DNA of 28,115 nt. It comes from a virus. Each line of letters begins with the position of its first letter. Position 1 is the stretch's first letter. The notes below the pieces were generated by a model, which was not told the origin of the DNA, ran no database searches, and saw only the letters and a list, made by a program, of their open reading frames with translations. Below are positions 3,621 through 28,115 of this stretch, piece after piece. The stretch lies in IMG/VR virus record IMGVR_UViG_3300017598_001040, positions 1 to 28,115 of that record. One strand, 5' to 3'. Both the position numbers and the translations under genes were made by a program.

Positions 3621-4511
3621 CTAATCCATTAAATCATCTATCGCATCGACTTCTCCGGTAGTTGGCACCTCTACTTCTTCCAGGAAGTCTTTATGCTGGT
3701 CAACGAACTCATCTACGTCCATCAACAGGATCATCCGTGCAACTACAGAATCGAACGTGAAGCCGTGCGACTGAACTTCCCGCGCCTGCGATTGCACCAA
3801 CTTGTACCCCTTCGGATCCATTCTAACCCAGATACAATTCTTACCTCCAAAGTCGAGAAACATAAAATGAAAGGGAAGGGTATCTCCGTACTTCGTAAAC
3901 AGCCTGTTAAGAAGCAAACTTAAATCATCAATCGTCTTCAGCTCCTCTCTGGCAGCATCAAAATCCTTCTTCATATCATCACTTGGCAGAGACTCCCGCG
4001 CCTGATCTATAAGCTCCTCGAACTCGTCCATGTCCACAAAGCCCAGATCGTGAGGCAGCTCCTCTGGCTCCACCTGGGACTTCTCCATGTACTTCTCAAC
4101 AAAACTCGTAAACTTCCTCGGAGAAATCTTGCCCCTGATCTTATTCATTCGGACAGTCTGCCTCATCTGTTCTATCTCATCCATCCTATCAGGGGCTGCG
4201 ACAATACACCGCACACTTTCTGCATCCAGTAGCCTCTGCTGCTCGTAACGGTGCTCTCCGTCGATAATCCTGAACTTCCCTTCCTCAATTGGCACGACCA
4301 ACGGGTAATCAAGGAAGCCCACATCTTCTACATTCTCAGAAAGCATATCAAATTCGTCAGGTGACATCTCATTCGGATTCCATGGATTCGCCTCCAAGCG
4401 TCCGATAGGAATATCTGCTACATCTCCGTGATCCCACTTGATACTTTTCCCGATGACTCTCTTGGTCTGCACCTTCTCTGCTTTCTTGTTTTTCAGTCTC
4501 ATTTTTGCCAT
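3621..4511 (-). CDS. ParB-like nuclease-domain (ParB/Srx fold) protein
   Basis: The N-terminal part (about residues 33-110) matches the ParB/sulfiredoxin-like domain: IPIGRLEANPWNPN, then a segment on not going wrong in direction (SENVEDVGFLDYPLVV), then the signature RIIDGEHRYEQQ, with GEHRY at 85-89. This domain binds CTP in chromosomal ParB and acts as a nuclease or DNA-handling module in phages. The rest (about 110-296) is not recognised and ends in the acidic tail VDAIDDLMD. The ATG at 4511 has GGAGG 7 nt upstream and is preferred over a TTG at 4517. A palindromic operator-like site lies 18 nt before the start, in the end of the previous gene. It is next to terminase genes, a frequent phage arrangement. 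Confidence 0.8.
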   Translation of the reverse strand: MAKMRLKNKKAEKVQTKRVIGKSIKWDHGDVADIPIGRLEANPWNPNEMSPDEFDMLSENVEDVGFLDYPLVVPIEEGKFRIIDGEHRYEQQRLLDAESVRCIVAAPDRMDEIEQMRQTVRMNKIRGKISPRKFTSFVEKYMEKSQVEPEELPHDLGFVDMDEFEELIDQARESLPSDDMKKDFDAAREELKTIDDLSLLLNRLFTKYGDTLPFHFMFLDFGGKNCIWVRMDPKGYKLVQSQAREVQSHGFTFDSVVARMILLMDVDEFVDQHKDFLEEVEVPTTGEVDAIDDLMD

Positions 4512-4522
4512 ACTCAAACCTC

Positions 4523-5539
4523 CTACTTTGCAAGCGCTTGCAGCGAATCGGCCACTATCGTCTTCCCCACTTCAGTTCCGTACGGGTGGCTCCATGCTTT
4601 AGCATGCTTGGCCTCTAACATCTTCTTCAGCATTGGCTCTGACCTCTCAGGCTCGATTAAAACGTTCGCTCCGCACACGATCGTCTCAGGCCTCTCCGTA
4701 TTCGGGCGCACAGTAAAACATCTTGCTCCAAGGATACATGCCTCTTCTTGAATGCCTCCACTATCCGTGAAAACAAATGGAGCATTCGCTATCGCCTCCC
4801 ACATTTTCCTCGGTAGATACGGCATCGCCATAACAATTTCATTCGGCATCTGGATACTATGCTGACTAATCATCCTGTGCGTAAAGGGATGGACCGGGTA
4901 GATCGCCGTTCTTGCTCCTATCTCCTTTATAAAATCTGAGATTGCATTCAACGTATGCTGGAACAGCCACGGATTCGCCACCAACTCGCTTCTGTGCAGT
5001 GTCACTAAACAACTTCCACCTTCGCGTCTTTTTGCCTTCCAGGCATCAATAACGTCAACCACTGTGTTACCTACTACAAACGTCTCTCCTTCACAGTCCT
5101 CATCTATACAGGTGTCTTCGTGTTCTATGAGAGGACAGAACAGCAGGTCAGAGGCATGATCCACCATCATCCTATTCCGTTCCTCTCTCATTCTGAAGTC
5201 TCCTGATCTCAGGCCAGCCTCTACGTGTACAAGCATAATCTTGCGATGGACAGCGGCTAACGCTCCAAGTACAGTGGAGGTCGTGTCGCCTTGAACAAAG
5301 ACTATATCTGCGCCATTCATATGCTGAGCACTCTCCCCAAAGAACGTACTCATCTCCAACATAACAACGTCTTCCAAAGGATACTGCAACTCGTCAAAAA
5401 CGTTTAAGCCCATCGCACTGCTGAAGTGCTGGCCGGTAAACAGAACCTTGACCCGCATATTTCGCCTTGCTGCTTCTACTACAGGCCAAAGCTTAATAAT
5501 CTCCGGCCTCGTCCCCATAACAAAGACCGCATTCTTCAT
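4523..5539 (-). CDS. wecB: Non-hydrolysing UDP-N-acetylglucosamine 2-epimerase
   Basis: The enzyme interconverts UDP-GlcNAc and UDP-ManNAc in the cytoplasm, feeding surface or virion glycan synthesis. The 338-residue length is close to the family norm (about 360-380, slightly short). The family motifs are present in order: MGTRPEIIK (8-16), FTGQH (34-38), QGDTTS (83-88), HVEAGLRS (105-112), a VVGNTVVD stretch near 155-162, TDSGGIQEE (258-266) and TERPE (281-285). The ATG overlaps the stop of the SDR gene (TAATG), so translation is coupled. Its last codons (LQALAK) are encoded by the palindrome at 4529-4542. A hydrolysing NeuC-type epimerase is a less likely alternative. Confidence 0.9.
   Translation of the reverse strand: MKNAVFVMGTRPEIIKLWPVVEAARRNMRVKVLFTGQHFSSAMGLNVFDELQYPLEDVVMLEMSTFFGESAQHMNGADIVFVQGDTTSTVLGALAAVHRKIMLVHVEAGLRSGDFRMREERNRMMVDHASDLLFCPLIEHEDTCIDEDCEGETFVVGNTVVDVIDAWKAKRREGGSCLVTLHRSELVANPWLFQHTLNAISDFIKEIGARTAIYPVHPFTHRMISQHSIQMPNEIVMAMPYLPRKMWEAIANAPFVFTDSGGIQEEACILGARCFTVRPNTERPETIVCGANVLIEPERSEPMLKKMLEAKHAKAWSHPYGTEVGKTIVADSLQALAK
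4529..4542. promoter_or_regulatory. Dispersed palindrome, copy 1 (TGCAAGCGCTTGCA)
   Basis: This is a perfect 14-bp palindrome in the last codons of the wecB-like gene, 18 nt before the start of the ParB-like gene and just upstream of its ribosome binding site. It matches the cre-like pattern TGNNANCGNTNNCA bound by LacI/CcpA-type regulators. Here it reads as CTG CAA GCG CTT GCA AAG on the minus strand. The function is inferred from repetition across the window. Confidence 0.75.
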
Positions 5540-6555
5540 TAGTTCCCCTCCTTTACCCTTTCGTCAAAACCCGCAGTAACGAGTTCCATCCTCTTTCTGT
5601 AATATTCTACAGTCTTCTCCAGCCCTTCTATGAGCCCAACCTCTGGAAGCCAGCCTGCTGCCGTCAGTTCGAGTGACTGTTCTATCTGCTTCACCCTAGC
5701 ATCAATCGTCCTGGACTCCACATATCTTTTCTCCGCCCCAGGGACTACCTCTGTAATGGCATCAGCTATCTCATTCACCGACGTCATGTGCTCCGGAACT
5801 ATGCTTACAGTTCTATTCTTGAAAACGTCAAAATTGTCAATTATCGTTGCTACCCCCCTGGCAAGATCTTCGCAGTAAAAATGCTGCCTTTGTTGTGTAC
5901 CATCTCCATGAATTACCATCGGCCTCCCAAGCAGCACATTGCGGACAAAATACCACGTTACTATGTTCCTACGCATCCTCGGTCCATACTGCGTCCCAAA
6001 TCTGAAGATAGAGAACGGAACCTCAAATTGATACCAGTTGTCGTGACAAATCATCTCCATGCCCAACTTGTTATCCACATACTGGTGGTAGCAATCCGAC
6101 AATAAAATCCGCTGCTCATCGTTCGCTACCTTACCTTTCTCATTCTCCTGGAACATGCCTGACAGCAGACTTGAGCTGGAAATCGACACCCTTCGTACCT
6201 TATTTACACCGAGAGCTTTGTTGTCAGCTATAGCATCATGAATCGTGGCCAATCCAACAGTACCAGGCATCCAGGCAGCCCTCTGCCCGAGAGCAGCTGC
6301 TACCGTGTGGCTAATACCGGCTAGGTGGATAACTTCCTCAATTTCTAATTCAGCCAACAGCTTCCTCATACCTTCAGGATCAGTAACATCTACCTTCGAA
6401 AACCAAATCGGCTCCTCCGGCCCCATATCGTCAATAATTTCATCTGCATTTGAATCGTCAATATCCGTAATGACAACTTTGTACCCTCTTGCCTGTAATT
6501 CATGGGCAATGTAGCCACCGAGAAAGCCCGCGCCTCCAGTAATTAAAACTTTCAT
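5539..6555 (-). CDS. NAD-dependent sugar epimerase/dehydratase (extended SDR)
   Basis: This is a nucleotide-sugar-modifying enzyme of the GalE-like extended short-chain dehydrogenase family, 338 residues. The dinucleotide-binding loop GGAGFLGG is at residues 7-14, acidic DIDD at 31-34 favours NAD(H), and IHLAGIS follows near 76. A Ser-rich strand is at 125-130, and the catalytic YVDNK (Tyr159, Lys163) is present. FRFGTQYGP and GDGTQQR in the second half are typical of sugar-nucleotide binding. The start has GGAGGG 6 nt upstream. It lies between an SGNH hydrolase and the 2-epimerase in a sugar island, so it probably makes or converts a UDP- or dTDP-sugar. The exact substrate cannot be told. 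Confidence 0.85.
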   Translation of the reverse strand: MKVLITGGAGFLGGYIAHELQARGYKVVITDIDDSNADEIIDDMGPEEPIWFSKVDVTDPEGMRKLLAELEIEEVIHLAGISHTVAAALGQRAAWMPGTVGLATIHDAIADNKALGVNKVRRVSISSSSLLSGMFQENEKGKVANDEQRILLSDCYHQYVDNKLGMEMICHDNWYQFEVPFSIFRFGTQYGPRMRRNIVTWYFVRNVLLGRPMVIHGDGTQQRQHFYCEDLARGVATIIDNFDVFKNRTVSIVPEHMTSVNEIADAITEVVPGAEKRYVESRTIDARVKQIEQSLELTAAGWLPEVGLIEGLEKTVEYYRKRMELVTAGFDERVKEGN

Positions 6556-6556
6556 T

Positions 6557-7174
6557 TCATCCCTCCAGGATTTTCGTTTTTTTCGTTACCATTCTTCTCA
6601 CACCATACAAACGCCTTCTTTCTATTGCATCAGCTACCTTCTCCGCTATCATCTTGTACCCGCTATTATTCATGTGCACTCCGTCTGCATAACAACTGTC
6701 TGGCAACTCTCGTAGATCAACAAGTGAAATCTTCCAGCCAGCGGCGATTGCCTGGAGATACTCATTATACTCATCAATCATCTCCTGGTCGCAGAAATCA
6801 GGCGCTCCAAAACCACTAAGATCTGGGATCGTACACAAATACGACACCTTATCAAATCTCTGAGCTATCCTTAAAATCGCCTCCACGTGCTCCGAGTACC
6901 TATCTGGCGGTGTCCTCACCTGCATTTTCGCATCGTTCGTCCCGACTAACAGGACCAGCTCGGCAGCCTCTGGATAGCCTCGTACAACATCGTATGCTCG
7001 CTTGTAGACTTCTATCGATATTTCCCCAGCCACCCCAGCATTGATACAATTCCAATTCTGGCCGTGCCTACTGTACAGCAACAGCTCCAGCTCTATCGGG
7101 TAGCCCCTCCATCGTTCATCTCTACTTCCCTCAGTCAAGCTATCACCAAGGCATATTATCGAACCGTAGATCAT
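6557..7174 (-). CDS. SGNH/GDSL hydrolase (esterase or deacylase)
   Basis: This 205-residue serine hydrolase shows all family blocks: GDSLTEG (10-16, nucleophile Ser12), NAGVAGE (45-51, oxyanion Gly), VGTND (77-81, oxyanion Asn) and DGVHMNNSGY (164-173, catalytic Asp164 and His167). Such enzymes remove acyl groups from sugars, lipids or peptidoglycan. It has no signal peptide, so it acts in the cytoplasm or is packed in virions. A perfect AAAGGAGGTGA ribosome binding site precedes the ATG. Its neighbours are a glycosyltransferase and sugar-nucleotide enzymes, so a carbohydrate O- or N-deacetylase role is plausible. Confidence 0.88.
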   Translation of the reverse strand: MIYGSIICLGDSLTEGSRDERWRGYPIELELLLYSRHGQNWNCINAGVAGEISIEVYKRAYDVVRGYPEAAELVLLVGTNDAKMQVRTPPDRYSEHVEAILRIAQRFDKVSYLCTIPDLSGFGAPDFCDQEMIDEYNEYLQAIAAGWKISLVDLRELPDSCYADGVHMNNSGYKMIAEKVADAIERRRLYGVRRMVTKKTKILEG

Positions 7175-7188
7175 TCCATCACCTCCTT

Positions 7189-8643
7189 TCAGGAAAAAAA
7201 CGCTTCTACGTCATAGGAATCAGCCTTTTCAAACTCCGGCTGTCTGCCTCCCAGATCCTTCAGCCATGGCAGCTCAGACAGAAACATGTACATCATCTGC
7301 GCTGTGAATCTGCCCTTAGAGCCTTGGCTAAAACAAGCAATTCGGTAAGCATTGTCATCGCCTCTAACAATCGATTGTATGAGATCCCGGATATGGAACT
7401 TTTTAGGCATGCGGTCTACATGACTCAACACCAACCGTGAATTCGGGTTCAGCCTCTTCGTCCCTCCGAGCTTCGGGGGCGGCCATCTTCCGGCTACGAG
7501 ATTCTTGATCCTATCATGAATATCCAGGAGGCACTTCTCCTCGTGGTATTCCTCTTCTACCCACTCCGGCACCCACGAAATCCTCTTGCATGCTTCCTCG
7601 TAATTCTCGTAAATCCACTTTAGCCATCCATAGGCTTGATTTCCGTTCTTGTACTTAAACGGATACTTTGACCACCTATCCTTCAACAGTGCCGCTGCCC
7701 ACGGGAGATCAGGCAAAACTGCAACTATACCCGTTACCAGCTGTTCTACAAAGCCTACTGAGAATCCCTCTATCCTCGATGAAGCCAGGTACGCATGGGC
7801 TTTACAACATCTCTCTACAAACTCGTCAGGGGGCACACGTTCTAAAACCTCAAAGCCTGGTGGAATCCTCTCCCCCGGGGTCCACCCAGTCGGGCTCGTG
7901 ATCACAATCCTTATCGGCCTACCCGCAGCGAAAAACTTCTCGTAGATTTCTACAAGGAATCGCTTCCTCTTCATGGCATTCAGGCGTCCACCAAAAAACA
8001 AGGTAAACTTGGCATTCTTCCTCTTTACCTTACTCTTCACCCGCCTCACTCTCTCAAATGAAATCCCCTTAACAGCAATCCACGACTTCCTGCTTACCTC
8101 GCTACAAATCTTCTCTTTAAAGAATCGCCTACAGGCCCGGAGCGCAGTCGCCTTCTCCAGGGTCGTGTGAAAAATGGGCTGGCACATTGCATATGAAAAC
8201 GACCGTGAGATCAGATCAATATCCTCAAGATTCTTCAACATCGGAGAACTGTAATCTGCTGCCATGGCCTCATCTACAATTACAGGAATATACTCCTTTT
8301 CTCCTCGCCATAGCATCCTCTGAATATGTCCGGCAATGCCGGTCCTGACTACCATGACAGCATCAGCAAACAGCTTCGGGTATCCGTAATTCAGGTACTC
8401 GTCAAGATTAGGAGGCATCGTTCCCATCAGCTCGTTAAATCTTCTATACTTCCCCAATTTCACGTAGTGCAGGCCCTCTACCTTCGGGACCTTATCTATA
8501 AACCTCAAATCAGCCGGGAGAATGAGGTATAGCGTCCCATTTCGGAACTTCCGTATCACCCTTGCCATCCTCTGATATATCAGGACTTCGGGCTCTGAGA
8601 GAGCGTTCGTATGACTACAACACGCTACCGCTGCTATCCTCAT
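7189..8643 (-). CDS. Glycosyltransferase, GT4/GT-B type
   Basis: The 484-residue protein has the second Rossmann half of a GT-B glycosyltransferase: FTLFFGGRLNAMKRK near 232, then IRIVITSPTG, EVLERVPPDEFVERCCKAHAYLASS, and the acceptor/donor-binding signature SSRIEGFSVGFVEQLVTG (near 296-313), which corresponds to the E-x7-E motif. The last roughly 110 residues (after about 375) are not part of a standard GT4 enzyme and are not recognised; they include DLIQSIVRGDDNAYRIACFS. It transfers a sugar from an activated donor to an unknown acceptor. The start ATG overlaps the stop of the acyltransferase gene and has AAAGGAG upstream. It belongs to the sugar island. Confidence 0.8.
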   Translation of the reverse strand: MRIAAVACCSHTNALSEPEVLIYQRMARVIRKFRNGTLYLILPADLRFIDKVPKVEGLHYVKLGKYRRFNELMGTMPPNLDEYLNYGYPKLFADAVMVVRTGIAGHIQRMLWRGEKEYIPVIVDEAMAADYSSPMLKNLEDIDLISRSFSYAMCQPIFHTTLEKATALRACRRFFKEKICSEVSRKSWIAVKGISFERVRRVKSKVKRKNAKFTLFFGGRLNAMKRKRFLVEIYEKFFAAGRPIRIVITSPTGWTPGERIPPGFEVLERVPPDEFVERCCKAHAYLASSRIEGFSVGFVEQLVTGIVAVLPDLPWAAALLKDRWSKYPFKYKNGNQAYGWLKWIYENYEEACKRISWVPEWVEEEYHEEKCLLDIHDRIKNLVAGRWPPPKLGGTKRLNPNSRLVLSHVDRMPKKFHIRDLIQSIVRGDDNAYRIACFSQGSKGRFTAQMMYMFLSELPWLKDLGGRQPEFEKADSYDVEAFFS

Positions 8644-9233
8644 ACATTCTCCTTTCGAGAATCCAGAATTCTACTGTTCTCCAAAATAACATCTGACTTT
8701 CTGGTTTTTAACGGCCTGGCCGGAACACCTCCGTACACCAGCCACTCAGACAGGCTTCCCTTTGCCAGACTTAAGGCTCCCAGCGCAACTCCATCTCCTA
8801 AAAACGTACTCGGTAGAATCACACAGTTCGCGCCCACGCTGACATACTTACCTATCAATACATCACCATTCCAGCAACCACAAAGATCATCCGGAATAAA
8901 CGCTCCCGCGAGTCCTAACTCTCCGTGAAAATCATCTACAATGGTATAAACCCTTGTACCTGCTGCCAACGTAGAATAATCCCCAATCTTCAACACTCCG
9001 TCTCCAGATCCTCCGAGCAGGCAATATGAGCATATCTGAACATGCCTGCCGAGAGTAAAGCCTGAGTGCCCTATTAATACGGCAAAATCATGGATCAGCG
9101 TGTAATCGCCAACCTCAATCAGATCAGGCCTCGACACCTTCACCAACTCGCCAATCTCAACTCCTGTGCCTATAGCCTTAAAACACTTCAAGGCCTCTTG
9201 CCCTCTGACAAGAGACCCATCACCAAGAATCAT
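8640..9233 (-). CDS. Hexapeptide-repeat (left-handed beta-helix) acyltransferase
   Basis: The 197-residue protein is built of imperfect hexapeptide repeats, for example IEVGDYTLIHDFAVLIG, FTLGRHVQICSY, LKIGDYSTLAAG, VLIGKYVSVGANCVILP, LGDGVALGALSLAKG, closing with VYGGVPARPLKTR, the usual end of a sugar O- or N-acetyltransferase. It most likely acetylates an amino sugar such as the product of the aminotransferase in this island. A GTG at 9239 overlaps the previous stop; the ATG at 9233 is better spaced from AAAGGG and is used here. A DD-H segment (VDDFHGE) near residue 100 could carry the catalytic His. Confidence 0.85.
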   Translation of the reverse strand: MILGDGSLVRGQEALKCFKAIGTGVEIGELVKVSRPDLIEVGDYTLIHDFAVLIGHSGFTLGRHVQICSYCLLGGSGDGVLKIGDYSTLAAGTRVYTIVDDFHGELGLAGAFIPDDLCGCWNGDVLIGKYVSVGANCVILPSTFLGDGVALGALSLAKGSLSEWLVYGGVPARPLKTRKSDVILENSRILDSRKENV

Positions 9234-9235
9234 TA

Positions 9236-9409
9236 TCACACCAGCCCTTTATCGACCGCAAACCATTCCCGTACTTCTACTGTACTTTCGTCGATACCCT
9301 CCACAACACTTTTCGGCACCCAGATTTCGTCATCTCCAATTTTAAAACAGAACGCCAGCTCCGTCTCCTTCGCAATTTCATCATAGTCTATTTCGACCAG
9401 CTCTGACAT
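9236..9409 (-). CDS. Small acidic protein of unknown function
   Basis: A 57-residue frame fills the space between the acyltransferase and the DUF5662 gene: it begins MSELVEIDYDEIAKETELAF and ends WFAVDKGLV. The ATG at 9409 has AGGAGG-type sequence just upstream (AAGGAGGATTA), and its stop overlaps the alternative GTG start of the acyltransferase, so the fit in the operon is exact. The protein is acidic and has no cysteine cluster, signal peptide or membrane helix. The operator-like palindrome at 9430-9443 lies 21 nt upstream of its start. The family is not recognised. Its placement suggests an acyl-carrier-like or partner role, but the Ser attachment motif of acyl carrier proteins is absent. 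Confidence 0.7.
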   Translation of the reverse strand: MSELVEIDYDEIAKETELAFCFKIGDDEIWVPKSVVEGIDESTVEVREWFAVDKGLV

Positions 9410-10972: not shown

Positions 10973-11509
10973 TCAATAACCCCTGACTTTGTACGGCGTC
11001 AAATCATAAAACAACTTTGAATGCGAGAACATCAATGGAGAGGCATCCTCCCGAAAGACTATCTCCTCTTCTATGCTCAGGCTTACCAGCCTATGAGTCG
11101 TCAGGTTCATGAGAGGAGCGCTAAAAATGCCGTTTATAGAGCAGAGGTGGGAAGCAATCGCCATTTTAGGAACCGGAAGCGACCACCCATCAACCTTCGA
11201 AAGACTAAACTCATACGGTGCTTCTGGCCTTCTTGTCTCTAAAACTTTTTGGGCCAACTTTACGTCCCCAGGCAGCCAGCTCAGTACCAGCTTCAAACTG
11301 TTACCTCCGGGCACCCATTCTCTTTCGACGTTACCCAGCGTCTTAGACTCCTTTCTCATCATGACAGCCACTACCGACTTCTTCGACAACGGTAGAACCC
11401 AGGTAAACGGTGAGCACCTGAAACTTCTATCACGATTCTTCGATGTTATCATCACAACAGGCAAAGGAGCGTACCAATCATGCCACTTTTGTCTATCAAC
11501 GAATTCCAT
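10973..11509 (-). CDS. Flavin reductase-like (FMN-binding split barrel) protein
   Basis: The 178-residue protein starts with WYAPLPVVMITSKNRDRSFRCSPFTWVLPLSKKSVVAVMM-like sequence (about residues 12-51). This is the pattern of flavoredoxin or flavin reductase domains: P-x-PVV-x-V-T-S, then S/P-x-x-x-x-V-PLS. LETRRPEAPYEFSLSKVDGW and a final EEEIVFREDASPLM segment also fit the split barrel. It would bind FMN and move electrons to a partner or oxygenase. Its ribosome binding site (GGAGGTAGCCG) lies in the end of the aminotransferase gene, which it overlaps by 14 nt, so the two are coupled. A flavin protein is unusual within a phage sugar island; the substrate is unknown. Confidence 0.65.
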   Translation of the reverse strand: MEFVDRQKWHDWYAPLPVVMITSKNRDRSFRCSPFTWVLPLSKKSVVAVMMRKESKTLGNVEREWVPGGNSLKLVLSWLPGDVKLAQKVLETRRPEAPYEFSLSKVDGWSLPVPKMAIASHLCSINGIFSAPLMNLTTHRLVSLSIEEEIVFREDASPLMFSHSKLFYDLTPYKVRGY

Positions 11510-12731
11510 CGGCTACCTCCGTTAGACTCTCAGCCACATACTCGGCTTCGTCAACAGTAAGTGTCGGGTATATGGGAAGACATAAGTGCTTCATACAATA
11601 GCCCTCGGCATCTGTAGGACTTCCTAACTTGTCCGGGAAAATACTGAAATTCTTGTGCTCCTGAAAAACTGCCATTTTACTCAGCGGCTTAGAATTGCAT
11701 TTAGCTTGAAGGCCTATACCTCGTTCCTTCATTCTTTCATAAACCTGGTAATTCTTCTCCACCGTATCCATCCAGTCTACAATCACAATGTACCTATACA
11801 GATTCGGCGACAACTTCGTTCCCCTGGCTCCATCTACTCCAAGACGCCAAATCACGGAAGCCCCGGGGTCCTGGAAAGAACCGTAGTGTCCCTCGTATGC
11901 AAGTTCCACCTTGCGCCTCCCCATCCAAATCTGCTTGTAATGCTTCCACAAGATAGCCCCAAGGGCTGCCTGAAACTCCGTCATCCTCCAGTTGTAACCT
12001 AAGATCAGAGAATCCGCAAATACTGGATCTGCCAGATCAGACGAATCCTTTCCGTAATTCCTGTAGGTCCGAAGAAACTCGTCGGAATCATCATCATCAA
12101 CTAATAGCATCCCTCCTTCTCCTGAGTGAATCATCTTTGTAGCGTAAAAAGAAAATGTAGAGATAGGCCCAGCCGAGCCCACAAGCCTTCCATCGGTATA
12201 GGTAGCACCGTGACAGTGGGCACAATCCTCAATCACCGGGATTCCGAGGCTGGTCAACCAATCTATCGTCTCCAAAGAATCTAAACCCACGGTGCCCGCT
12301 GTATAAACCGCCAGGTAGACCAACCGCTTCCTATGAACATCGGAAAATGTGCTGATAGCCTCACTAACCTGCCCGACTGTAGGCATGATCCCATTGGAAA
12401 TGGTAGAAGGAACGGCAGCGACTTCGGCTCCCATCCTCAGAGCTACGTTGGCACAACCATAGAACGACGTGTCGGGCATCAACACTATCAGGTCGGACAC
12501 ATCCATATCTTTCTTCTTTGCCGACAAAAGCAGCGCCATCTCCAGCGCTGCCGTATCACTGTTCACTGCAATGCCAAACTTCCTACCATGGGAACTGGCA
12601 AACGATTCTTCAAAGTCTCTGGTTCTATCTCCAAGAACAAACATTCCAGAAGTCAGCACGTCATCAAAGGCTTTCAGAACCTCCTCTCTAAACGGGTCAG
12701 TTGCAACCCTGTATGGAACTATAAAATCCAT
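11496..12731 (-). CDS. DegT/DnrJ/EryC1/StrS-family sugar aminotransferase
   Basis: This PLP enzyme places an amino group on a keto-sugar nucleotide. The 411 residues contain the family landmarks: NSDTAALEMAL (57-67, phosphate-binding Thr/Ala region), MPDTSFYG (85-92), VIEDCAHCHGA (166-176, with Asp169 facing the PLP nitrogen), STFSFYATKM (191-200, with Lys199 forming the Schiff base), EGGML (205-209) and GYNWRMTEFQAALG. GGAGGTAGGCG precedes the ATG. With the acyltransferase, SDR and 2-epimerase it would make an N-acylated amino sugar. An operator-like palindrome and a hairpin lie in the 67-nt gap upstream. Confidence 0.92.
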   Translation of the reverse strand: MDFIVPYRVATDPFREEVLKAFDDVLTSGMFVLGDRTRDFEESFASSHGRKFGIAVNSDTAALEMALLLSAKKKDMDVSDLIVLMPDTSFYGCANVALRMGAEVAAVPSTISNGIMPTVGQVSEAISTFSDVHRKRLVYLAVYTAGTVGLDSLETIDWLTSLGIPVIEDCAHCHGATYTDGRLVGSAGPISTFSFYATKMIHSGEGGMLLVDDDDSDEFLRTYRNYGKDSSDLADPVFADSLILGYNWRMTEFQAALGAILWKHYKQIWMGRRKVELAYEGHYGSFQDPGASVIWRLGVDGARGTKLSPNLYRYIVIVDWMDTVEKNYQVYERMKERGIGLQAKCNSKPLSKMAVFQEHKNFSIFPDKLGSPTDAEGYCMKHLCLPIYPTLTVDEAEYVAESLTEVADGIR

Positions 12732-23700: not shown

Positions 23701-24945
23701 CTACCTATAACCACTTAATACCTCGGTCTGTTCTATCAGCATCCTCGACATGTCGTACAGCACCTGAATCTTACCGCGTTCGCCTTCCCGCCCCTTTAAC
23801 AACTCCAGTATCTTGAAAGTTCTTGCCTTCCATACCCCCGACTCCCTCTCTCTTTCCTCTGTCAGATCCTCATCCAGACTGATGACGATACTCGCCAATT
23901 GGCCAACTGCATCGGTATAAGCAATGTTCTCCAGCTTCCCCGCCCCTCGCCTGTTAAATTGATATGTTGCTATCGCCGGAATCGAGAACTCCGTGGCTAT
24001 CATCTTCAAAAATTCCGCTGTCTGGGATACTCTCTCCCACCTTGCACTGATGTTCTCCTTTGATCGCAGCAAATAAGCTCCGTCAACATACAGGGCATCC
24101 GGCTTCAATTCTCGCACCGTTAATACGAGGTCCTCAATCGTACTCTTGAGTTCACCTTCTAACAGCCAGAAAGGCCTATCTGTGTTCCCCATGAGGTTGC
24201 CTACTCCCTCCTCCAACCGCATTCGGCCCCAGTGCCCAAGCCTACCCTTTCGGATTAAATCCGTCGGGACCCTCGTCCTCAGAGCCATTATTCTCCTGGC
24301 ACACTGCAGGGCTGGCATTTCTAAGGTAACCACCAACGGGCACTTGCCTGCATCATATGCATAGTTCGCCATGGCAAACTCGAAATATGACTTCCCCATA
24401 CCAGGCCTACCAACAATCGCTATTGTATCACCAGGCTGTGCCCCATTCGATACTTGGTCCAGGTAATCCAATCCAAACGGAACGCCGTCCATTTCTCCTG
24501 AATTCCTCAGCCTATCATGCTTTATCAATACCAACTGTGCCTTCCTCACCAAATCGTCTACTCGGTGCGTCGGGCTCCTTGCTTCAAGCTCAAGGAAACA
24601 GTCCCTTAATTTTCCTCGGGCAACGTCAACATCACCTTCTGAACACGCCTCCATCATCTGCTCAGCTGCTTCTGTTATCAGCCTCGACATTCTTCTTCTT
24701 TCAACTCTGTCTATCCAGTACTCAATCGGCTCATCCGTCAGCTCCGGTAGCGACACATTGACCTCGGCATCTATTGTCTCTTCCTTTGGATACACTCCGT
24801 ATTCCGCAAGATGCCGTTTGAGAAACTTATACACCTTCAGCTCTTCACCTACAAAAGAGTCATCGTCGACTCCCTTGTCTTTTAAATCAGTCAACAGCTC
24901 CTTCGTATCTAATAACTTCTTAATTAATCCAAGGCCAATTGTCAT
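23701..24945 (-). CDS. DnaB-type replicative DNA helicase
   Basis: This hexameric fork helicase has 414 residues. The N-terminal domain (about 1-125) is helical and binds primase in this family. The RecA-like C-terminal domain begins GVPFGLDYLDQVSNGAQPGD (154-173), then AIVGRPGMGKS (Walker A 179-186), VVTLEMP, DALYVDGAYLL (Walker B, Asp288), and IATYQFNRRGAGK near 330, ending LELLKGREGERGKI, which matches the usual KnR-G-x-x-G segment. It starts with TAAATG directly after the loader gene and has GGAGA upstream. The loader before it and the primase after it complete a phage primosome. Confidence 0.9.
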   Translation of the reverse strand: MTIGLGLIKKLLDTKELLTDLKDKGVDDDSFVGEELKVYKFLKRHLAEYGVYPKEETIDAEVNVSLPELTDEPIEYWIDRVERRRMSRLITEAAEQMMEACSEGDVDVARGKLRDCFLELEARSPTHRVDDLVRKAQLVLIKHDRLRNSGEMDGVPFGLDYLDQVSNGAQPGDTIAIVGRPGMGKSYFEFAMANYAYDAGKCPLVVTLEMPALQCARRIMALRTRVPTDLIRKGRLGHWGRMRLEEGVGNLMGNTDRPFWLLEGELKSTIEDLVLTVRELKPDALYVDGAYLLRSKENISARWERVSQTAEFLKMIATEFSIPAIATYQFNRRGAGKLENIAYTDAVGQLASIVISLDEDLTEERERESGVWKARTFKILELLKGREGERGKIQVLYDMSRMLIEQTEVLSGYR

Positions 24946-25656
24946 TTACAATTTCTCCGTCACCTTCAGGCTAAACTCTTTATATCCTTCTACATCAAAT
25001 GGAACAGCAAATCCAAATTCGTTTATTCGCCTCGCAACCGCATCGCCTAACATCCTCTCCAAATCCTTGAAAAGCTCACTGAGTCCTGCCCTCTGAAACG
25101 TCTTACCCTTGAAAGTTGTTGTCATTAACGTCAGGCCTCCTTTCACGCACCGATCAGACAGCATGCTCGCCGCCATCCCCTTTCCATAAGAATTCAGCTG
25201 CATGTCAGCTACATCTTCCCAAACGAGCAGCCCCGCTTTTCTGATTAACTCCCTCGTCTCCCACGCTGGGTCAGCAGCAAAAATATCAGCTGGGGCTCTG
25301 GCGCTAAAAAGTGAATGCAACTCCTCTGTATTCGTTCGGTTACACGGTACGCCCACTCTCGTAAATGAATACGTCGGTCCAACATAAAGTGCAAGCGCTT
25401 GCAGAAATCCGTAACTCTTTGAGACAACGACTACTATCGGTTTCTTTTCACTATGCGTTAAATGTATCAGTGCTCTGATTATTCCTTTTCTCACAGCCTC
25501 TGGCGGCTTAGTCCTCAATTTTTTAATTGGAAATTTCAGTCCATCCAGCTTCTCCCATATAATCGCCTTTGTTGTAGCATCGCCTTTAAATTTCGTCAGA
25601 TCCCATGGGAACACTATGTCTTTTTCAGTTATTTTCTTCGCTTCCTTCTTCGCCAT
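24946..25656 (-). CDS. Probable helicase loader-like protein lacking a P-loop
   Basis: The ATG at 25656 has GGGGAGG 5 nt upstream and gives 236 residues. The order initiator, this gene, dnaB-like is the usual place of a DnaC/DnaI loader. The fold pattern also fits: a strand KKPIVVVVSKSYGFLQALAL (71-90) where a P-loop would be, AGLLVWEDVADM (141-152) where Walker B would be, LTLMTTTF as a sensor-1-like strand, and a last helix ERMLGDAVARRINEFGFAVPF. But GxxxxGK[ST] is missing, replaced by SKSYGFLQ. So it may be a degenerate AAA+ protein that no longer binds ATP, or an unrelated protein in the same slot. A palindrome lies inside it. Confidence 0.5.
   Translation of the reverse strand: MAKKEAKKITEKDIVFPWDLTKFKGDATTKAIIWEKLDGLKFPIKKLRTKPPEAVRKGIIRALIHLTHSEKKPIVVVVSKSYGFLQALALYVGPTYSFTRVGVPCNRTNTEELHSLFSARAPADIFAADPAWETRELIRKAGLLVWEDVADMQLNSYGKGMAASMLSDRCVKGGLTLMTTTFKGKTFQRAGLSELFKDLERMLGDAVARRINEFGFAVPFDVEGYKEFSLKVTEKL
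25390..25403. promoter_or_regulatory. Dispersed palindrome, copy 7 (TGCAAGCGCTTGCA)
   Basis: An exact 14-bp copy lies inside the loader-like gene, read as CTG CAA GCG CTT GCA CTT (LQALAL), at the position where a P-loop would otherwise be coded. It uses the same reading frame as the copy at 4529. It is operator-like by inference. Confidence 0.75.
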
Positions 25657-26572
25657 CTTCCTCCCCTTCAATTATAACTGGATATTCTTCCACTATCGGT
25701 CTTTCGTTCTTTGGAATCGCCAGCCAGTCACGTATCTCCCTTCGGTTCAAATAATAGAACTCAAAACTTACACGCGACGGAATCGGTAAGTCGGTTACTT
25801 TTCCATCGTGCCACGTCTTGTGAAGCGTACTTCTTTGCATTTCCCGGAAGTGCTCAACAAAACCACTTAACTCCTGCTTCGGGTCGCTGTCACTCGACTC
25901 GCATTCTTTCAGCCAGTTCTTAGCCTGTCTTTTTAACTTCCGCGTCCATCCATCAAAATACCCAAGCTCTTGCTCCGCACACAAGCCTCTTAAAATCGTC
26001 TCGACATTCGCCTGGCTTAAATTTTCCGCCGCCATCGCCGTATCGTATTTCTGCTTCCTTGCCATCTCCGACTTCCTCATTCCTTCCTTAATTGCGCTAT
26101 CTAATTTCATCCACCTCCTCCCCTCCCAGAAAATCAACACTTTCTTTTGAATCTCTGTCAGCTTCGCGCACCTCCTTCCAACCATTTTATCATCAGACCC
26201 TTTAACCAGCCAGTCTATGTACAAGCCCAGAAGCATCGGAATATTCAGTCTGTACTCCGCAGAGTCTGCTCTCTTTCTCTTAATTTCTAAGACCCCTTTT
26301 TCAATAAGTCTTTTTTTGGATTTAAAAAATTGCTGCCTACAACAACCTACTGGTGGAGTATAACCAGGCCAAAAATCTTCGTAAAATTGCATCTCCCTCA
26401 TACGTCCTGAAAAATAACTAAAACACAACGTCCTCCCGTAGACATAAAGCGCAACCTCTAACTCCGACCTGCTACCGGGAACCATACACAAACCACTGAC
26501 CACTGCATCTTTTAATAGAAGCTTTTCATATACTGTAATCCCTGCTTCCGTAAAATGATTCTTGTCTGCCAA
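25625..26572 (-). CDS. Putative replication initiator (winged-helix-like phage protein)
   Basis: This is the first gene of the replication operon, upstream of the loader-like and helicase genes, the usual place of a phage origin-binding protein. The N-terminal 115 residues look like a winged helix: LEVALYVYGRTLCFSYF, CCRQQFFKSKKRLIEKGVLE, IKRKRADSAEYRLN. The middle is basic (KLTEIQKKVLIFWEGRRW, RKLKRQAKNWLKEC) and the tail is acidic (EGEEDGEEGSEENN). The preferred start is TTG at 26572, 5 nt after GGGGGTGA, the same arrangement as for the Ycf46-type gene; GTG at 26581 is the alternative. It overlaps the loader gene by 32 nt. The family is not identified with certainty. Confidence 0.6.
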   Translation of the reverse strand: MADKNHFTEAGITVYEKLLLKDAVVSGLCMVPGSRSELEVALYVYGRTLCFSYFSGRMREMQFYEDFWPGYTPPVGCCRQQFFKSKKRLIEKGVLEIKRKRADSAEYRLNIPMLLGLYIDWLVKGSDDKMVGRRCAKLTEIQKKVLIFWEGRRWMKLDSAIKEGMRKSEMARKQKYDTAMAAENLSQANVETILRGLCAEQELGYFDGWTRKLKRQAKNWLKECESSDSDPKQELSGFVEHFREMQRSTLHKTWHDGKVTDLPIPSRVSFEFYYLNRREIRDWLAIPKNERPIVEEYPVIIEGEEDGEEGSEENN

Positions 26573-26635: not shown

Positions 26636-26664
26636 ATTATAACCCAGCTTTCACTTTTTGTCCA
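26636..26664 (-). promoter_or_regulatory. Promoter of the replication operon
   Basis: On the minus strand, TGGACA (26659-26664) and a perfect TATAAT (26636-26641) are separated by 17 bp. The start would be near 26629, giving a leader of about 55 nt before the initiator gene. Confidence 0.82.
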
Positions 26665-26750: not shown

Positions 26751-26799
26751 GCAATCTACTCTCTTGTATATTCTTGTTCTATTCTCGTATTAAAGAAGA

Positions 26800-26883
26800 G
26801 ACGCATTTCGGTCATAGTTTGTCTTATTTCTGCGACTCTTTGTCGCATTTCGGCCATAGTTTGTCGCATTTTGGCTACCCGTA
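26800..26883. repeat. Four tandem 21-bp repeat units (iteron-like)
   Basis: Four consecutive 21-bp units begin at 26800, 26821, 26842 and 26863. Units 1 and 3 differ at 2 positions; units 2 and 4 differ from unit 3 at 7 each. The shared core is GTCGCATTTCGG. The unit length equals two helical turns, and the array lies upstream of the putative initiator gene, so these could be iterons. Because 21 is a multiple of 3 they also encode heptads on the minus strand (see the possible coiled-coil gene). Confidence 0.6.
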
Positions 26884-26888
26884 CATTT

Positions 26889-26902
26889 TGCAAGCGATTG
26901 CA
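26889..26902. promoter_or_regulatory. Dispersed palindrome, copy 8 (TGCAAGCGATTGCA, one mismatch)
   Basis: This copy has one change (C to A) in the right half but keeps the outer TTGCAA...TTGCAA (26888-26903). It lies 9 bp upstream of the -35 box of the plus-strand small-RNA promoter and next to the 21-bp repeats. The position suits an activator or a modulator of that promoter. Confidence 0.7.
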
Positions 26903-26911
26903 AAAAAATAG

Positions 26912-26940
26912 TTGACAAAGCAAAAAAAAGATGATATCTT
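26912..26940 (+). promoter_or_regulatory. Plus-strand promoter of the small RNA
   Basis: TTGACA (26912-26917) is separated by 17 bp from TATCTT (26935-26940), with TG at the extended -10 (TGATATCTT). An A-rich stretch precedes the -35 box. Transcription should start near 26947. It is the only convincing promoter on the plus strand in the window. Confidence 0.8.
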
Positions 26941-26946
26941 ACTTGA

Positions 26947-27094
26947 CAACTGGTGAGATATCCATCCATCTCACCTCTCTCTTACCGAGGTCGGTTTTCA
27001 TCCTACCACACTCAATGAAAACCTGCCACCGCCAAACGAAAGGCCCGTAGGATTCGCCACCTCGGGCCTTTCGTCATCTTATTTCTTTTTTTCT
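26947..27094 (+). ncRNA. Structured small RNA beside the replication control region
   Basis: A plus-strand transcript of about 145 nt is bounded by a strong promoter and a terminator and contains no open frame of note. It holds three hairpins. H1 is GGTGAGAT (26952-26959) with ATCTCACC (26968-26975), an 8-bp perfect stem. H2 is GGTTTTCAT (26993-27001) with ATGAAAACC (27015-27023), a 9-bp perfect stem. H3 is the terminator stem of 11 bp. In addition, CCGAGGT (26985-26991) can pair with ACCTCGG (27059-27065), and ATCCTAC (27000-27006) with GTAGGAT (27047-27053). This gives an alternative long-range duplex or a loop-loop contact. It is not a known family that I can name. It could be a replication-control RNA, an attenuated leader or a packaging-type RNA. 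Confidence 0.65.
27037..27094 (+). terminator. Rho-independent terminator of the small RNA
   Basis: CGAAAGGCCCG (27037-27047) pairs perfectly with CGGGCCTTTCG (27063-27073) around a 15-nt loop. A T-rich tail (TTTCTTTTTTTCTT, 27082-27094 region) follows on the plus strand. The stem ends one base before the stop codon of the convergent HNH gene. On the minus strand only TTTGG follows the stem, so termination there should be weak. Confidence 0.88.
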
Positions 27095-27343
27095 TAGGAT
27101 ATATCTTGGCTCAAATCTACTTTTAACAGCAAGGCCATGTCTACTCCTGTGGCAATACTCGCATAGAGTCTGCAAATCACGTTTCAGATCTTCAAGACCT
27201 AAACTATCATAATTCTTGTGATGCACATTCACTCGCTTCGTACTTCCACACTTCTGACAGCTTGGATTCATTTTCAGCTTTTCTGCCCGAATCTCCCTCC
27301 ACAACGCAGACTTGATATACTGCCGATAATACGAATCCTCCAC
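27074..27343 (-). CDS. HNH endonuclease
   Basis: The 89-residue protein has the full HNH zinc finger: SCQKCG (28-33, Cys29 and Cys32), VNVHHKNYDSLG (38-49, catalytic His pair 41-42), LQTLCEYCHRSRHG (57-70, Cys61, Cys64, His65). Free-standing proteins of this size are common in phages, where they act as homing-type nickases or assist packaging. It starts with GTG overlapping the previous stop (TAGTG); the ribosome binding site is weak. Its end abuts the small-RNA terminator. Packaging-linked HNH proteins usually sit next to terminase, which is far away here, so a homing or free HNH nuclease is more likely. Confidence 0.85.
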   Translation of the reverse strand: MEDSYYRQYIKSALWREIRAEKLKMNPSCQKCGSTKRVNVHHKNYDSLGLEDLKRDLQTLCEYCHRSRHGLAVKSRFEPRYILRKKEIR

Positions 27344-27645
27344 TATTTTACTTCGTCAAACCACATCACCCTTACTTTACTCCTCTGCTCTTCCAGCTGT
27401 TCGTTCAGCCATTCAATTTCAGCAGCAACAGCATCGCTTCTATTCTTGAATCCGTGGCCTATCTGTTTCTCCGATCCATCTTCAAGGACCAACCAAATCT
27501 GCCATTTCTGCTCTTCCTTCGACCAACGAACGTTACTTGCCCGCGTCATTTCAGCAGATCCTAACTCCAAACATGGATGTCCGTCTTGATACAAAAATCG
27601 TACTGTCCCTCCATTAGGACTTATCAATACTATTGACGACTCCAT
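27343..27645 (-). CDS. Unknown 100-residue protein
   Basis: The ATG at 27645 follows the DUF2997-like stop by one base. The protein reads as a beta-rich N-terminal part (SIVLISPNGGTVRFLYQDG), then NVRWSKEEQKWQIWLVLEDG (about 38-57) and a helical end FKNRSDAVAAEIEWLNEQLEEQ. The W...KW..W..L.DG pattern followed by a DA..EI..LN helix suggests a small alpha/beta protein with a repeat-like fold. I do not recognise a family. Its tight packing between the DUF2997-like and HNH genes suggests it belongs to the same module. Confidence 0.65.
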   Translation of the reverse strand: MESSIVLISPNGGTVRFLYQDGHPCLELGSAEMTRASNVRWSKEEQKWQIWLVLEDGSEKQIGHGFKNRSDAVAAEIEWLNEQLEEQRSKVRVMWFDEVK

Positions 27646-27646
27646 C

Positions 27647-27838
27647 TTATGCTTCTACCTGTTGGCCGCTATGGCTCTCTTTGTAATAGCTATCTTTCTT
27701 CTTCTCTTCTTCAACGTTTCCAAGCATTTTGAGGACATTGTTGATGCCATCCTTGCACTCTGTTCCGACAAAATCCTTGGCGTCCACATCCACACTCGTC
27801 CCATCAGGACTAATCTTAATGATATACTCTCCCATCAT
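27647..27838 (-). CDS. DUF2997-like small protein
   Basis: The 63-residue protein has the layout of DUF2997: YIIKISPDGTSVDVDAKDFVG (a strand-turn-strand with the PDG turn), then TECKDGINNVLKMLGNVEEE (a conserved Cys followed by a helix) and a short polar tail containing DSYYKE. AAAGGAGGAA stands before two ATGs at 27838 and 27835; the second is better spaced. DUF2997 genes are often next to DUF1257/Ycf35 and a Ycf46-like ATPase; the neighbouring upstream gene here is DUF1257-like. Biochemical function is not known. Confidence 0.7.
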   Translation of the reverse strand: MMGEYIIKISPDGTSVDVDAKDFVGTECKDGINNVLKMLGNVEEEKKKDSYYKESHSGQQVEA

Positions 27839-27848
27839 TTCCTCCTTT

Positions 27849-28115
27849 CTACAACTGTAGTGAGCTGACTTTCATAACAATAGAACCATCGTCCTGCTCT
27901 CTCGCCCAATCAACCATTTTGCCAGACTTCCGTACGCCTTTTGTAATTACACCTTTCGTGTAATCTCTCCCAAGCTTTCCTCCGTTACGTCCTAAACGCC
28001 TGGTTATCATAGAATAGTTTGGGTCATTGTCGACAATCATTTTAAAACCGCCCCCATCCTCTACTAAATAACCATCGTACCCGCGACGCCCACGACTTTT
28101 ATCTTTTAGGAAAGC
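27849..28115 (-). CDS. DUF1257/Ycf35-like protein, 5' end outside the window
   Basis: The frame is open from 28115 to TAG at 27849, 88 codons, and the ATG at 28040 is probably internal. The visible part reads RGRRGYDGYLVEDGGGFKMI, then NYSMITRRLGRNGGKLGRDY, a helix TKGVITKGVRKSGKMVDWAR and a final strand DDGSIVMKVSSL. This matches the end of DUF1257/Ycf35 proteins: a strand pair, a basic helix and the closing DGSI.L.V strand. With the DUF2997-like gene directly downstream the call is strengthened. The reaction or partner is not known. Confidence 0.6.
   Translation of the reverse strand, partial: AFLKDKSRGRRGYDGYLVEDGGGFKMIVDNDPNYSMITRRLGRNGGKLGRDYTKGVITKGVRKSGKMVDWAREQDDGSIVMKVSSLQL

Follow-up and report, generated by a model that had tools for sequence, protein, structure and literature searches.

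The promoter-to-terminator unit and its surroundings

The window, by which we mean the whole 28,115-nucleotide stretch of DNA analyzed here, is a 28-kb piece of a tailed-phage genome. Long relatives that share its gene order include contigs of 98.3, 99.8, and 94.9 kb, so the complete genome probably measures ~95–100 kb. All recognizable genes of the window lie on the minus strand; among their products are the terminase large subunit, a ParB-like protein, a sugar-modification cassette, an AAA ATPase, RecA, an SF2 helicase, a primase, and DnaB. The cassette (4523–9239 and 11496–12731, minus strand) includes a UDP-GlcNAc 2-epimerase, an NAD-dependent epimerase, a GDSL hydrolase, a hexapeptide transferase, and a DegT-type aminotransferase; for neither epimerase does the 98-kb relative offer more than a weak or partial match.

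On the plus strand, positions 26912–27095 hold a unit composed of a promoter, an RNA of ~145 nt, and a strong terminator (Table 1). A scan for promoter-to-terminator units returned this unit as its single match in the window on either strand, in agreement with the initial annotation, which had described it as the sole plus-strand transcription unit; the promoter, the three stems, and the U-rich tail were all recovered in place. The unit is read at the sequence level, and we infer its transcription from these signals. The minimum free energy (MFE) of the RNA is −51.3 kcal/mol, whereas its shuffles average −25.3 (z −7.8; 0 of 200 shuffles equal it), and without the terminator the RNA is still structured (z −5.6). 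When the whole Rfam library was searched, no family exceeded the gathering threshold in the window, consistent with the earlier remark that the RNA belongs to no family that could be named.

Table 1. Features around the RNA unit, numbered from the first nucleotide of the window
Feature	Position	Strand	Remarks
DnaB-like replicative helicase	23701–24945	−	phrog_19, E 3.4e-51
DnaC/DnaI-like helicase loader	24946–25671	−	predicted fold, 3ec2 DnaC, E 1.4e-6
Probable replication initiator	25625–26572	−	start TTG 26572 or GTG 26581
Promoter-like site of the replication operon, TGGACA-17-TATAAT	26636–26664	−	divergent from the RNA
Iteron-like array, 3 repeats, 21-bp spacing (probable origin)	26802–26878	.	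16/18 identical at lag 21; 0/300 shuffles
16-bp palindrome TTGCAAGCGATTGCAA	26888–26903	.	LacI-family-operator-like; copy of a dispersed repeat; ends 8 bp before the −35 box
Sigma-70-type promoter, TTGACA-N17-TATCTT	26912–26940	+	−35 box 26912–26917; −10 box 26935–26940
Predicted RNA gene, ~145–150 nt	26946–27095	+	5′ end inferred via the promoter, 3′ end via the terminator
Hairpin 1: stem 8 bp, loop 8 nt	26952–26975	+	
Hairpin 2: stem 9 bp + 3 bp, loop 13 nt	26989–27027	+	
Intrinsic terminator hairpin: 15 bp, loop ATTCGCCA	27036–27074	+	
U-rich tail of the terminator	27075–27095	+	overlaps the final codons of the convergent HNH gene
HNH endonuclease gene	27074–27343	−	converges on the RNA

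The probable initiator has a predicted N-terminal winged helix (pLDDT 83), for which the best fold match is CodY, with a probability of 1.0 but a weak E value of 0.03. The initiator gene is followed by the loader and DnaB genes, and the primase gene comes after DnaB. Because iteron repeats occur together with initiator, loader, and DnaB genes, the locus beside the RNA probably combines an initiator with its iteron origin; we regard this as a good prediction, not proof. Additionally, three small conserved proteins, one of them a DUF2997 protein, are encoded at 27343–28040 (minus strand), and in most relatives their genes likewise come before the RNA unit.

The palindrome before the RNA promoter is dispersed over the genome. 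TTGCAAGCGATTGCAA has four matches counting both strands, against 0.00 expected, and its 14-bp core TGCAANCGNTTGCA occurs eight times in the window (4529, 9430, 12782, 17686, 20212, 23687, 25390, and 26889). The core is found in 18, 16, 14, and 20 copies in four long relatives and in zero copies in several other relatives, and its reversed control was never found. Copies lie within genes and also just before ribosome sites. The spacing between the palindrome and the −35 box is the same within 1–2 bp in the relatives L259, L132, and L133, and in G008 the sole copy in 31.9 kb stands at the RNA promoter. The contig L137 (G017, 100.5 kb), a distant relative whose DnaB is ~30% identical, carries 20 palindromes of this type, nearly all of them exactly TGCAATCGATTGCA. 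The palindrome has the form of LacI-family operators, in which AA/TT and TGC/GCA flank a central CG. The repeat resembles a stoperator or a partition site of this type. Similar to the stoperators of cluster A mycobacteriophages, it consists of many near-identical short copies throughout the genome, some just before ribosome sites; in contrast, those stoperators are asymmetric 13-bp elements, whereas the core here is a symmetric 14-bp palindrome. A protein with a ParB N-terminal domain is encoded beside the terminase genes (3621–4517, minus strand) with a palindrome directly before its ribosome site, and this protein is a candidate binder of the dispersed repeat. Through this palindrome, the RNA promoter may be coupled to a repressor or segregation system that operates genome-wide.

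Equivalent units in related phages

Relatives were taken from IMG/VR via DnaB and helicase alignments, and nine of them cover the equivalent spot (L259/L130, L132, L133, L134, L260, L261, L263, L264, and L295), with DnaB proteins that are 39–50% identical. A promoter-to-terminator unit of 69–158 nt lies at the same spot and on the same strand, opposite to the genes, in all nine. With the window included, it is present in 10/10 phages of the clade whose contigs span the spot and share the gene order. All ten promoters have a TTGAC[A/T] box, a 17-bp spacer, and a −10 box in common. The 3′ end of the RNA falls between −21 and +28 nt from the stop codon of the convergent gene across the ten phages; the HNH gene was not found adjoining the RNA in the relatives, where other genes converge. 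The scan yielded 37 matches in 930 kb, both strands counted, nine of which are the syntenic units, and in several phages the syntenic unit is its sole match. No such unit was found in L262 (DnaB 44% identical), in which the gene order is different, nor in the more distant L265, L266, and L267. L127, L128, and the 98-kb G001 are uninformative because their contigs stop short of the spot. G001, a close relative (L002/L123, 98,252 bp), has its ends inside DnaB and inside the homologue of 27849–28040, so this assembly lacks exactly the origin and RNA region.

Similarly, a direct-repeat array lies between the initiator gene and the RNA promoter in nearly every phage, with a repeat unit that differs from phage to phage and a spacing of typically 21–23 or 31–33 bp. 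The arrays are beyond chance in 8/10 phages (P < 1/300 versus shuffles over the lags tested). In the lag test, the iterons of L259 and L261 are not significant; L259 has weak repeats, and L261 carries two identical 25-mers at a longer spacing. The initial annotation had placed the RNA beside a candidate origin and divergent from the replication operon, and this arrangement is supported by the iterons, by the initiator, loader, and DnaB genes, and by the position retained in the nine relatives.

Folding is conserved across the ten RNAs, with z values of −4.1 to −8.1, and each RNA beats all 200 of its shuffles. The part preceding the terminator is structured in 9/10 RNAs (P ≤ 0.05 each). The number of hairpins differs between relatives, and three stems are not a feature of the family. 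Almost no sequence is common to the ten RNAs, the mean column identity of their global alignment being 31%; at this identity, the alignment is unfit for a covariance model or a meaningful count of pairs. A few short pieces are shared: the terminator-loop 13-mer GGATTCGCCACCT is common to the window and L260, related pieces occur in L295 (ATCGCC) and L133 (ATCCGCC), and ACTCCTTTCCTGTT is common to L263 and L264. An Rfam search of the RNAs in eight relatives matched no family, and BLAST against phage records gave no convincing match. Searched against viral contigs, the terminator and hairpin-1 patterns were too frequent for use, and a pattern of two shared motifs gave 25 matches, among which only the already known L260 sits within such a unit. 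A search of the genome collection found no relative and hence no host or prophage. Collectively, these results indicate that this kind of RNA gene escapes sequence search yet is traceable by synteny.

Comparison with lambda pO/oop and a proposed role

The oop RNA of lambda, transcribed from pO, is the textbook origin-flanking phage RNA, and its part in replication is still debated. The order of the lambda region, with the pR operon including cII, then pO/oop, O with ori, and P, is matched by the gene order of this phage group. Similar to pO/oop, the unit would yield a short RNA with its own promoter and intrinsic terminator, here at the sequence level. In 10/10 phages it points away from the initiator gene and toward the operon that precedes it, and it adjoins a predicted iteron origin, after which the initiator and loader genes follow. 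In lambda, pO faces pR transcription beside ori, and its loss impairs replication and the binding of the initiator to the iterons; replication does not require the oop RNA itself, which silences cII as an antisense RNA (PMC3985674; PMC12197685).

There are also differences. In lambda, oop is an antisense RNA to the 3′ portion of cII, whereas the overlap with the neighboring gene here is at most ~21 nt, and several phages have none. Because the RNA is antisense to its neighbor by no more than this, the cII-antisense role of oop is not transferable. Judged from the Rfam search alone, there is no recognized sequence relation to oop. Moreover, the repeats lie upstream of the initiator gene here and inside it in lambda, and, unlike in lambda, a promoter-like site of the initiator operon lies in between. 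In some members, a LacI-operator-like palindrome flanks the RNA promoter, which is unlike pO/oop. Other known RNAs are more remote. The RNAI/RNAII pair of ColE1 and the countertranscript RNAs of plasmids are likewise short structured RNAs beside an origin; however, those RNAs are made from the strand opposite to their target, which they overlap with full complementarity, whereas the two units here diverge and have no sequence in common. An RNAI/RNAII-like control, one of the roles proposed initially, is geometrically excluded because the RNA lies outside the replication leader and does not overlap it. The c4-type RNAs of P4 and P1 and the sar RNA of P22 are also small stable phage RNAs of early control regions; in contrast to them, no overlapping antisense gene is identifiable here, and the whole Rfam library gave no match. 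By analogy, the comparison suggests that the unit is an oop-like, origin-flanking variant on the lambda theme.

We favor, at somewhat short of an even chance, a dedicated non-coding unit that flanks the origin and would work like pO/oop. Such a unit most likely acts mainly through its own transcription and possibly also through the RNA. Around the unit, all genes point in one direction, and the order runs from the small genes through the iterons to the genes for the initiator, the helicase loader, DnaB, and the primase. From its place on the outer side of the iterons, the RNA promoter would fire against the incoming operon of small genes, and the transcript would stop at the last stop codon of that operon. 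Firing of the promoter, together with the strong terminator, may restrain possible read-through of the upstream operon into the origin, which would protect the initiator-iteron complexes and tune initiation. In phages that carry the palindrome, a protein binding to it may regulate the RNA promoter. Furthermore, the RNA may pair with the ribosome-binding site of the initiator gene. The retention of the unit in nine relatives despite near-complete sequence change suggests that it helps to run the origin. Conservation of position and promoter, and not of sequence, fits an element whose act of transcription matters, while a role of the RNA as well, or a need for its stability, is suggested by the structure conserved ahead of the terminator.

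Possible targets of the RNA and alternative explanations

The strongest alternative, possible but rather doubtful, is a trans-acting RNA whose C/U-rich single-stranded loops mask ribosome-binding sites, chiefly that of the initiator gene, and thereby set initiator dose and copy number. Within each phage, the RNA was scored against the gene starts, and the cost of opening structure was counted; an earlier target ranking had been skewed by cis-antisense artefacts and the U tail, and it was redone in this way. The initiator start is the top target in two phages, L132 (−17.2 kcal/mol in total, over a 20-nt interaction) and L134 (−15.8), and takes third place in L259; however, it ranks only 9th of 34 in the window and near the bottom in L263. 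Over the ten phages, the initiator ranks first of 22 gene families (uncorrected Fisher P 0.010), which fails correction for 22 families; next come RecA, gene 16222, and the ATPase, with P 0.012–0.014. In 10/10 phages, unpaired segments of the RNA bind start regions better than gene interiors (combined P 0.018 versus composition shuffles), in favor of such a role. Unpaired C+U is somewhat above the same-strand background (P 0.004), likewise in its favor. Against it, unpaired G is not significantly depleted with same-strand controls (P 0.25); G-poor loops, considered as evidence of anti-Shine–Dalgarno pairing, had held with both-strand controls and failed with same-strand ones. The RNA strand is C-rich throughout (GC skew ~−0.3). 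The anti-Shine–Dalgarno reading is weak because this strand skew explains most of the C/U richness, and the initiator as the target is a lead only. A more specific version, which we consider unlikely, is a fast-evolving RNA family, fixed in place and not in sequence, that would control initiation through base pairing to the 5′ region around the start of the divergently transcribed initiator mRNA and co-evolve with the initiator and iterons of its own phage. If this were true, copy number would be controlled by a regulatory RNA encoded across the origin from its target, not opposite to it.

Less probable is that only the DNA matters, with the terminator and promoter insulating the origin and the RNA a functionless by-product. 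That position and terminator are kept and sequence is not is consistent with this explanation, which is a special case of the oop-like model preferred above. However, the stable structure beyond the terminator in nine of the ten RNAs would be needless in a by-product. It is about as improbable, or slightly more so, that the RNA acts on the host by pairing with or titrating a host RNA or protein, as an anti-CRISPR repeat mimic or an sRNA sponge would, and that its place on the origin side merely reflects early expression. Structure with rapid sequence turnover is expected of an RNA tracking a host target, and phage RNAs of this kind exist, namely AgvB and the Racrs (PMC10651486). The lack of any Rfam match in the window and eight relatives argues against such a role, which moreover has no need for a fixed place beside the origin.

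Two further explanations are very improbable. A gene for a small protein, located on the opposite strand and directed toward the replication genes, could lend the plus strand its anti-Shine–Dalgarno appearance through its ribosome site, and minus-strand open reading frames with good ribosome sites do start within the unit in the window (26790–26969), L263, and L264; however, these match no protein from any other phage in the set, most phages show no such frame, and the conserved letters belong to the plus-strand promoter. Equally improbable is a conformational switch or attenuator, in which leader segments would pair with the terminator and control termination. The initial annotation had proposed mutually exclusive folds from two pairs of segments, CCGAGGT/ACCTCGG and ATCCTAC/GTAGGAT, which are indeed present and complementary. 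A nested pair of complementary 7-mers linking leader and terminator arises in 0.1% of shuffles, compared with 10% for a single 7-mer, and the CCGAGGT/ACCTCGG pairing becomes optimal, though only in a transcript cut within the terminator. In the full transcript, enforcing either pairing gives ~−37 kcal/mol, 14 worse than the MFE, and leader-terminator matches never exceed 6 nt in the nine relatives (all P ≥ 0.3), none of which has a counterpart of the switch. We regard the switched fold, possible only during transcription of the terminator, as chance or a folding intermediate. The kissing contact suggested for ATCCTAC and GTAGGAT is likewise unsupported because GTAGGAT sits partly in the terminator stem, and so is an attenuated leader, since the genes beyond 27074 are all on the minus strand and no plus-strand gene follows downstream. 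R-loops favor G-rich transcripts, and a primer or R-loop role was disfavored on these general grounds for the C/U-rich RNA.

The proposed oop-like, origin-flanking unit is thus a predicted RNA gene that keeps its place, promoter, and stable folding while its letters turn over almost completely. As a second group beside lambda, the ten phages offer ten natural variants, each with its own initiator and iterons, and swapping their parts could separate the effect of the RNA from that of its transcription. Collectively, the results suggest that regulatory RNAs beside phage origins are under-counted.
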